A DNA stretch of 64,000 nt from Mucilaginibacter arboris (GTDB lineage Bacteria > Bacteroidota > Bacteroidia > Sphingobacteriales > Sphingobacteriaceae), in contig NZ_WPIK01000003.1 in assembly GCF_009754915.1 (NCBI RefSeq), forward strand, positions 62,001 through 126,000. The letters run 5' to 3'. This document shows positions 37,606 to 39,455 of the stretch, piece by piece. Position 1 is the first letter of the stretch; every line of letters starts with the position of its first letter. Under the pieces are notes generated by a model. It was not told the DNA's origin. It searched no databases and was given only the letters and a program-made list of their open reading frames with translations. The position numbers and the translations under genes are program-made.

Positions 37606-38796
37606 ATGAAAACAATAGACCAAGCCAGCTTTGCCGGCAAAAAAGTTTTGATCCGCGTAGATTTTAACGTTCCGCTGGATAAAGATTATAATATTACGGA
37701 TGATAACCGCATTACGGCTGCTTTGCCCACCATCAAAAAGATTTTGCAGGATGGAGGCGCAGTAATTTTAATGTCGCATTTAGGCCGGCCAAAAGATGGG
37801 CCGACGGAAAAATATTCCTTAAAACATATCGTTCCGCATCTATCTGACTTATTAGGACAACAAGTAGAATTTGCAGATGATTGCATCGGTCAGGAAGCAA
37901 CAGATAAGGCAAAAGCACTGCAAAGCGGCGAAGTTTTATTGCTGGAAAACCTGCGTTTTTACAAAGAGGAAGAAAAAGGCGATGTCGGGTTTGCTAAAAA
38001 ACTGGCTGCCCTTGGAAATATCTATGTAAATGATGCATTTGGGACGGCGCATCGTGCACACGCTTCTACTTCTATTATTGCGCAGTTTTTTCCGGATGCC
38101 AAATACTTTGGTTATTTAATGGCTTCTGAATTGGAAAATGCAGAAAAAGTTCTGAACAATCCGGTAAAACCGTTTACAGCAATTATGGGCGGCGCAAAAG
38201 TTTCTGATAAAATCCAACTGATTGAACGTTTGCTGGATAAAGTTGATAACCTGATTATTGGCGGCGGCATGACTTACACTTTTTTTAAAGCAGAAGGCGG
38301 AAAAATCGGGAAATCTTTAGTTGAAGAAGATAAACTGGATTTAGCAAAAAGCCTCGTTCAAAAAGCAAAAGATAAAGGTGTAAATTTGATTTTACCGGTA
38401 GATTCTATCATTGCAGATAATTTTTCTAACGATGCCAATACCGAAATTGCCAAAAACGATAACATTAAAGAAGGCTGGATGGGATTGGATATCGGACCGG
38501 AATCAATCGAAGCATTCTCCAAAGTAATTGAAACATCAAAAACCATTTTATGGAACGGGCCAATGGGGGTTTTTGAAATGGATAAGTTTGAAAAAGGGAC
38601 CAAAGCTGTAGCCGAAGCCATTGTAAAGGCAACAGAAAATGGCGCTTTCTCGTTAATTGGGGGCGGAGATTCTGCAGCGGCAATTTCCAAATTTAATTTA
38701 ACCGATGAAGTAAGTTACGTTTCTACCGGCGGCGGTGCTTTACTGGAATATATGGAAGGCAAAGAATTGCCAGGCGTAAAAGCAATTAATGATTGA
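37606..38796 (+). CDS. pgk: Phosphoglycerate kinase
   Basis: A 396-residue two-domain glycolytic kinase. [14 protein letters not shown] begins the N-terminal substrate domain; [21 protein letters not shown] and [14 protein letters not shown] follow. The C-terminal nucleotide domain has [26 protein letters not shown] and the [12 protein letters not shown] loop. Length is standard. It is followed by a hairpin terminator. Confidence 0.97.
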
Positions 38797-38876
38797 TGCT
38801 GTTTTTATCGGCATAAAAAGAGTATGAAAGCCTTTGCCTGTTATGGTAAAGGCTTTTTGTTTGATTGCTTCTTTTA
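38795..38876. repeat. Sister motif and first-form motif flanking the pgk terminator
   Basis: GATGCTGTTTTTATC (38795-38809) overlaps the pgk stop, and TGCTTCTTTTA (38866-38876) follows the terminator. The two forms thus bracket the terminator in the same orientation. Confidence 0.65.
38827..38860 (+). terminator. Rho-independent terminator after pgk
   Basis: AAAGCCTTT (38827-38835) pairs with AAAGGCTTT (38848-38856) across a 12-base loop and the T-run continues to 38858. Confidence 0.75.
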
Positions 38877-39002
38877 TTTTGAATAGTAATAGTGAAAGGC
38901 ATCCCACTACAAAAAATTTAATAGAAAATGGCTATTAGAACAAAAAATGTAATTCTTTCAGTAATTATAAAGTTAATGGCAAGGTTATAGAAGAATCCCC
39001 CC

Positions 39003-39127
39003 ATACCAAAAAAAGCCCCGTCATTTTTGATGGGGCTTTACGCTTTAACTTGGTTACGTTATCCGAAGACAAGAGGCTTTACCAAGCATCACGGGACAAA
39101 AGCAGTTATATTTGTTGAAATAACAAA
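39003..39127 (-). ncRNA. Candidate small structured RNA with own promoter and terminator
   Basis: On the minus strand a promoter-like pair TTTG (complement of 39124-39127), 19 bases, TGCTTTTG (complement of 39097-39104) is followed by CTTGGT...ACCAAG pairing (39081-39086 with 39049-39054) that encloses a TTGTC-TTCG-GATAA hairpin with a C(UUCG)G tetraloop (39059-39072). About 12 bases later comes a strong terminator, AAAGCCCC...GGGGCTTT (39032-39039 with 39012-39019), and seven Ts. The predicted transcript is roughly 85-90 bases, starting near 39090. No protein is encoded and the RNA family was not recognised. Confidence 0.45.
39012..39039 (-). terminator. Strong intrinsic terminator of the candidate small RNA
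   Basis: AAAGCCCCGTCA and TGATGGGGCTTT pair over 12 bp (one G-T) around a TTTT loop. The T-run is on the minus strand (complement of 39008-39014), so it ends leftward transcription. Confidence 0.8.
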
Positions 39128-39155
39128 TATAATATAGTAATGCAATTTCGATATT

Positions 39156-39392
39156 TTGAACAATACTTTACATTTTGAACAATACTTTTCAGCACCAAGG
39201 GTAAATAGATATCTTATTGCGACTGGAAACTTTACAGGAAAAGCAGTCAAATTATATAAAGCAAACCTTAAAATATCTCCAGCAATCCGTTGGGTGCTTT
39301 TGAAAGATGTCCAGGGCAAAGGTGGAGCGGCCAACCATCCTTTTTACACATCTGCACAAAACGGCCAGGTTACGCAAATATCCACCACCTAA
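39156..39392 (+). pseudogene. Abi-like (AbiD/F, Abi_2 family) N-terminal remnant
   Basis: The first 45 codons, beginning MNNTLHFEQYFSAPRVNRYL and continuing GNFTGKAVKLYKANLKIS, match the N-terminal pattern of Abi_2/AbiD-F abortive-infection proteins as I remember it. Homologues continue with a PLLGxxEVxLRN block. Here the following codons do not; a shift near 39285 into the +1 frame gives NPLGAFE, which looks like the lost continuation. Full members have about 250-350 residues, so the gene is degenerate and truncated. No alignment was run. Confidence 0.45.
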
Positions 39393-39436
39393 TGGATCAG
39401 CTTCCTTACTGAAACTTTAGCCCAGGCAGCCTGATT

Positions 39437-39455
39437 TGGCTAAAGTCCAGCTAAG
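39437..39455. repeat. TGGCTAAAGTCCAGCTAAG repeat overlapping the speA stop
   Basis: The same 19 bases recur exactly at 56668-56686, and an inverted near-copy is at 56576-56590. Here a single arm lies at the 3' end of the decarboxylase gene and includes its stop codon. Confidence 0.75.

Follow-up and report, generated by a model that had tools for sequence, protein, structure and literature searches.

In type III toxin-antitoxin systems such as ToxIN, an RNA binds and neutralizes a ribonuclease whose fold is unrelated to that of the HEPN toxin discussed below. A HEPN protein with an RNA partner is represented by PbAbiF-AbiFr of Prevotellaceae (PDB 8VZ6), which is reportedly the subject of Zilberzwige-Tal et al. 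2025. According to the available parts of the respective articles, AbiF of C. difficile is neutralized by an adjacent RNA, RCd22, which binds it and is encoded upstream on the toxin strand and co-transcribed (PMC12373285), AbiFr likewise binds and inhibits AbiF (reviewed in PMC12737573), and PD-T4-5 (Vassallo et al. 2022) is a plasmid gene that is toxin-antitoxin-like and distantly related to AbiF/D (PMC9519451). Beyond the AbiF papers, a literature search found no RNA described with PD-T4-5 or with Abi genes of Bacteroidota, and parts of the picture presented here may already be in print.

The minus-strand element and its RNA family

The locus lies in the window, i.e., the whole stretch of 64,000 nucleotides of Mucilaginibacter arboris DNA that was analyzed, in which the first-pass annotation had pointed out a candidate small RNA on the minus strand at 39003-39127. 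Comparative evidence now backs this candidate as a putative small-RNA gene with a promoter, a structured 5' domain, and a terminator, and the signal was confirmed as genuine and well beyond chance, judging from the match to a covariance model of this RNA (R1) in its own genome (E 1.5e-19, the one real copy there), strong matches in relatives, covariation, and a promoter box at a constant place. Read from 39127 to 39008, the element comprises TTTG, a spacer of 19 nucleotides, TGCTTTTG, a two-helix hairpin, and a terminator hairpin with seven T, and thereby contains the promoter-like pair described earlier (Table 1). The -7 box begins at -12 and deviates from TAnnTTTG at its second base. The outer stem GCTTGGT/ACCAAGT joins 39087-39081 to 39054-39048, and the inner stem TTGTC/GATAA joins 39072-39068 to 39063-39059 around the loop TTCG. 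Both stems and the loop are as first described, but the UUCG cap is variable among relatives, in which the stems, AAGCCUC, and CGUA are kept; the terminator hairpin and its seven T were also found, with 11 pairs (8+3, one mismatch) rather than the 12 claimed. The folding energy of the element strand is -29.5 kcal/mol (z -3.44), and none of 200 shuffles was equally stable. A leader or riboswitch of a downstream gene was ruled out, as pgk is convergent with the element.

Table 1. Predicted features of the RNA gene and its partner remnant (window positions)
Feature	Position	Strand	Basis and remarks
Predicted small RNA transcript, ~85 nt	39006-39090	-	5' end placed ~7 nt past the -7 box; promoter position in 78 loci, terminator, fold
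-33 element TTTG of the putative RNA promoter	39124-39127	-	Sequence; TTG-like element in 48/78 related loci
-7 element TGCTTTTG, imperfect TAnnTTTG	39097-39104	-	Sequence; TAnnTTTG there (-13/-12) in 61/78 related loci
Conserved two-helix RNA domain	39037-39092	-	R1 model match, 73.7 bits, E 1.5e-19; covariation
Near-invariant unpaired AAGCCUC, 5' internal loop	39073-39079	-	79/81 toxin-linked RNAs; also in Rfam abiF consensus
Conserved unpaired CGUA, 3' side of internal loop	39055-39058	-	CGUA in 72/81 and NGUA in 81/81 toxin-linked RNAs
Predicted intrinsic terminator hairpin and T run	39008-39039	-	Hairpin 39039-39012, seven T; sequence and fold
Remnant of divergent Abi_2/PD-T4-5-like HEPN toxin gene	39140-39299	+	Everything past ~codon 47 missing; toxin profile, DNA homology, tblastn

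When 399 genomes of the taxonomic family were searched at the DNA level, relatives emerged that have the 5' domain in common and not the terminator sequence. When 11 of these were aligned with MAFFT without use of structure, 9 of the 12 helix pairs varied on both sides and 99.2% of cells were standard pairs, compared with 28-53% paired when partners were slid by 1-3 columns as a control; in 75 distinct sequences, whose alignment was fitted to R1, 11 of the 12 pairs varied on both sides. The compensatory changes that the first-pass annotation had suggested looking for in relatives were thus found, and where it had taken a lack of conservation as a sign against the element, a conserved family with covariation appeared instead. 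R1, which was built partly from the family loci, some of them lacking an intact toxin gene, gave matches with E<=0.05 in 48 of these genomes, although many of those with the poorest scores are doubtful. Forty places in 37 genomes with E <= 5.8e-8 were taken further, at which cmsearch gave 41 matches (the extra one weak), and the window copy ranked third among them. Exact AAGCCTCT is present in 78 of the 81 toxin-linked RNAs, and the promoter counts in Table 1 refer to 78 of 80 loci, two being left out for too little flanking DNA.

The earlier remark that the element resembled no remembered RNA family agreed with Rfam 15, which at its cut-off gave no family at the element (the sole hit in the window was a tRNA elsewhere), and a permissive scan of 681 bases around it returned chance-level matches only. 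The abiF RNA family RF03085 was unmatched in the window, in the 681 bases at E<=5, in locus L143 at E<=10, and in the phage contig and plasmid mentioned below (L222 and L223); its positive control, phiC2, was matched with 37.6 bits, and a search of 198 genomes of the phylum gave no matches, but carries no weight since its controls were likewise unmatched. In turn, R1 does not detect the abiF motif of phage phiC2. The element belongs to a conserved two-helix RNA family that is apparently uncatalogued.

One genome (G249) carries three copies of the RNA (L089, L094, and L104), two with an intact toxin and one without, and the similar cassettes at differing sites suggest mobility. Phage carriage comprised 2 weak records among 50,697, with one IMG/VR contig (L222) bearing RNA and toxin, and the pair is not chiefly a phage gene in the collections searched. 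Three other RNA-toxin cassettes (L095, L096, and L097) are nearly identical, L096 departing from both directly past the RNA terminator, a point that may mark the cassette boundary. On a conjugative plasmid of Phocaeicola vulgatus (L223:1500-2870), a recombinase and a Fic gene come after the RNA-toxin pair.

The divergent HEPN partner and the order of loss

A single protein cluster recurs in 26 of the 40 RNA neighborhoods, just upstream and on the opposite strand. These proteins are ~226-242 aa long and carry the HEPN motif RNRxxH; residues R183, N184, R185, and H188 are invariant in 55 of 55 (56 sequences were tried and one with a stop was dropped), and the HEPN catalytic R(x4)H is present. 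The best match of all four proteins compared with PADLOC was the PD-T4-5 profile (E 5.9e-16 to 8.1e-13), a distant one, and one of four intact toxins exceeded the Pfam Abi_2 (PF07751) cut-off of 25.6 bits (L077, 31.5 bits vs 15.1-22.8 for the other three). A sequence search of PDB gave no useful relatives of the partner protein. An AlphaFold2 model based on the 55-sequence alignment reached a pLDDT of 93.8, and the top PDB row in Foldseek was 8VZ6, the PbAbiF dimer bound to ncRNA, with an E of only 0.0035. VIA-align against this structure gave Z 12.8 with 211 residues aligned (rmsd 3.1, 14% identity), the next row having Z 5.2. An AbiF-like fold is predicted for the partner toxin, although for a helical protein such a Z is not decisive alone.

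The association was also approached from the toxin side, using protein only, with a profile derived from RNA-linked toxins. A search of a named genome collection gave 159 relatives, and 80 loci were kept, nearly all Bacteroidota by title with one Verrucomicrobiales MAG; a few duplicate family genomes (e.g., L111 is a contig of G002 and L137 one of G389). R1 placed the RNA immediately upstream on the opposite strand in 80/80 (E<=2.8e-9), with two copies ~1 kb apart in L147 and an extra, chance-like weak match in L145. Within the 399 family genomes, all 25 toxin places with E <= 6.2e-60 were at RNA loci. The next five full-length relatives (G027, G098, G370, G389:C36, and G002:C121; three rechecked) had no RNA of the window family, hereafter type A, among the matches listed and had hairpins of type B or C (see below) instead, and several weaker toxin pieces for which no RNA was listed (in G137, G303, G361, and G056, plus one in G249) are incomplete or contain stops.

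At the 41 RNA places of the taxonomic family, the toxin is full-length in 17, damaged in 11, and absent within 3 kb in 13, so that 24 have no intact toxin; all 28 loci with toxin sequence are divergent, with an RNA-toxin gap of 36-68 bases in the 17 intact ones. The RNA gene outlives the toxin in these loci. Its median score is 51.0 bits without toxin vs 64.0 with an intact one (p 0.005, with relatedness ignored and some of these loci included in R1) and 64.8 at damaged-toxin loci (p 0.85, no difference from intact); AAGCCUC is kept in 9/13, 17/17, and 11/11, respectively. Because RNA quality drops where the toxin is gone and not where it is merely damaged, the constraint on the RNA, to judge from these comparisons, depends on the toxin. 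Such a pattern is expected if toxin-first loss is safe and the role of the RNA is toxin-dependent.

The window holds one such damaged pair. The toxin profile matched 39171-39299 at profile positions 5-47 (E 1.8e-9), which is the sole toxin trace in the genome, and a short tandem duplication, as read from the sequence, disrupts the frame close to its beginning. At the DNA level, the window resembles an intact Belliella locus (L112, 74%) from the RNA terminator to ~39273 and no further, the broken N-terminal stub running from 39140 to about that point, and tblastn gave 26/35 identities to the L077 toxin. The degraded defense gene noted earlier beside the element proved to be what is left of the gene partnered with this RNA; the two form one pair, of which the RNA is antitoxin-like, a link absent from the first-pass annotation. 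In the comparison with L112, the counts are 51/54 for the RNA and 79/93 for the stub, and since the divergence of both from L111-L114 is similar to that among functional pairs, the death of the toxin was probably recent. As far as sequence can tell, the RNA gene is intact and its toxin partner destroyed, which makes it an orphan and a young relic, and it may already be silent because its -7 box is imperfect.

Two genomes of the family (G001 and G002) have their pgk and speA matches on separate contigs, which leaves no empty site to be read between them. Between the toxin stub and speA, a 52-base repeat (39404-39455) is 98% identical in G000:C5 and occurs also at contig ends of G002; it is possibly a mobile or intergenic repeat tied to the truncation. 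Another segment, 38779-38890, at and past the 3' end of pgk, recurs elsewhere in G001 and G000 and is apparently a dispersed terminator-like repeat.

Proposed mechanism and alternative explanations

We consider it likely that the element encodes an AbiF-type RNA antitoxin, a ~85-nt RNA that would bind and restrain a divergent HEPN toxin and that has been orphaned in the window. This reading builds on the conserved structure, promoter position, partnership, HEPN motif, predicted AbiF-like fold, and toxin decay, and transcription, binding, neutralization, and an anti-phage role would be its implications. In intact relatives, the RNA would be driven by its own TAnnTTTG promoter, fold as a two-helix hairpin with unpaired AAGCCUC/CGUA, and be released by its own terminator, and the divergent gene a few tens of bases off would make a small ribonuclease, a HEPN protein grouped with Abi_2/PD-T4-5. 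Most likely, direct binding by the RNA would keep this protein inactive, and an attacking phage or some other disturbance would release it, so that growth stops (abortive infection). With its toxin gene broken and truncated, the window retains an intact RNA gene that has no partner. As the strong toxin places and the named toxin loci all have the RNA and RNAs without toxin are common, the direction of dependence fits an antitoxin.

It is conceivable, though unlikely, that the orphan RNA in the window has been retained because it is useful by itself, as an anti-addiction agent that counters Abi_2 toxins arriving from outside. Its motif and both helices are intact and its score is among the highest of the family despite the dead toxin, and the genome has no other toxin of this clade; however, the divergence of RNA and stub resembles that of functional pairs and fits recent toxin loss, RNAs decay where the toxin is wholly gone, and the promoter box is imperfect. 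Control at the DNA or mRNA level, with the RNA acting as an antisense to the leader of the toxin mRNA or with polymerase at the RNA promoter blocking the toxin promoter, seems improbable. The divergent promoters are only tens of bases apart, and the toxin strand showed no consistent TAnnTTTG box (at most 6 of 78 loci at any one position), so that the toxin mRNA might begin inside the RNA gene. Nevertheless, pairing between opposite strands is always perfect and would exert no selection for compensatory changes or fixed unpaired bases, both of which are seen, and in up to 12 of the 78 loci TAnnTTTG lies between RNA and toxin, which would leave no overlap.

That the RNA activates the HEPN protein rather than inhibiting it, serving as its cofactor, guide, or sensor, is brought to mind by the AbiF lineage, reported as ancestral to RNA-guided Cas13 in the available part of a review (PMC12737573), but is highly improbable, as the entire core is conserved with no variable guide segment, and RNAs without toxin are common, yet the RNA accompanies every one of the 25 strong toxin places and 80 named loci. 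A chance hairpin with a terminator would agree with a simple sigma-70/terminator scanner, whose patterns suit Bacteroidota poorly and which listed neither element and no promoter or terminator excess in the region, but is refuted by conservation for practical purposes, given the family, its covariation, the fixed promoter position, and the 80/80 association.

Related hairpins and comparison with known systems

Two further types of divergent hairpin were recognized by eye. Type B consists of a stem, UCCCUG, an inner hairpin, the closing stem, and a U-rich tail, and looks like an antitoxin and terminator in one. It accompanies Abi_2 relatives in taxa ranging from Bacteroidota to Kocuria and Sphingobium and was seen upstream of Abi genes in L224, L226, L227, L228, L245, L246, L248, L249, L250-L252, L255, and L260; in eight such hairpins, all nine outer pairs are kept, pair 9/26 changing on both sides and others via G-U. 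Type C (L225, L229, L232, L247, L254, L261, L263, and L264, also upstream of Abi genes) carries UCCUCUCCC or a close variant of it in its 5' loop, with GGUGAYGA or a similar sequence on the 3' side, and its CCUCU again resembles the abiF motif. By eye, all 12 of 12 further short-Abi relatives from Bacteroidota, Actinomycetota, and Proteobacteria had a divergent hairpin (type B in 8, type C in 4). When 296 genomes of the phylum were searched for the type B toxin, 12 of 14 distinct places with a toxin N-terminus likewise had one (type B in 5, type A in 3, and type C-like in 4; one of the other two was cut by a contig end and one had none). Next to four longer Abi proteins on plasmids (L230, L231, L233, and L234), no RNA of type A, B, or C was recognized by eye.

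The evidence leaves evenly balanced the proposal that divergent hairpin RNAs are general partners of short Abi_2/PD-T4-5-type HEPN proteins, so far overlooked, with type A, at least two further types (B and C), and the abiF RNA forming one RNA-antitoxin superfamily marked by a pyrimidine-rich internal loop. If true, PD-T4-5 defense would be an RNA-controlled toxin-antitoxin system, and Cas13's RNA partnership would have arisen from such a pool.

To a group of defense toxins that are usually annotated as single genes, the analysis adds a conserved family of RNAs that Rfam 15 lacks. It suggests that PD-T4-5/Abi_2 systems of Bacteroidota, including those of gut Phocaeicola, are two-component and RNA-controlled, and cloning such genes without the divergent RNA could mislead on toxicity or defense. 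In addition, the asymmetric survival of RNA over toxin offers a simple comparative test of toxin and antitoxin roles, and the common AAGCCUCU loop ties the family to the abiF RNA and, through it, to the debate on where Cas13 guides came from.

Among the known systems, type III ToxIN would share the proposed logic of an RNA neutralizing a ribonuclease by binding, whereas the window family has no tandem-repeat antitoxin (one core per locus in 79/80) and its genes are divergent. PD-T4-5 is the top PADLOC match of the partner protein, but the profile match is distant, and the available part of its description makes no mention of an RNA partner (PMC9519451). PbAbiF-AbiFr resembles the window family in predicted toxin fold and in joining a HEPN protein to an RNA, but the proteins, on which the comparison was made, share only 14% identity and differ in length (297 aa vs 242 aa). 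The closest parallel on the RNA side is the abiF RNA (RF03085/RCd22), which is also a short hairpin RNA that has a promoter and terminator of its own and neighbors an Abi_2 HEPN gene, as the window family adjoins an Abi_2-type gene at 80/80 loci and a stub in the window. The abiF RNA lies on the toxin strand, upstream and co-transcribed, whereas the window family is divergent (28/28 family loci with toxin sequence and 80/80), so that read-through into the toxin is impossible; RCd22 has two cores and the window family one per RNA. By analogy, the RNA would act as an AbiF-type antitoxin, and by covariance search it falls outside RF03085. The Rfam abiF consensus, aligned on phage phiC2, reads CCCGCC-A-AGC-CUCUCA...GCU-CAAAUC-GGCGGG and that of the window family CUUGGU-[AC]-AAGCCUC-UU...AA-CGUA-ACCAAG; the 3' side of the internal loop differs (GCUCAAAUC in the abiF RNA vs CGUA), whereas on the 5' side both RNAs have AAGCCUCU after the outer stem.
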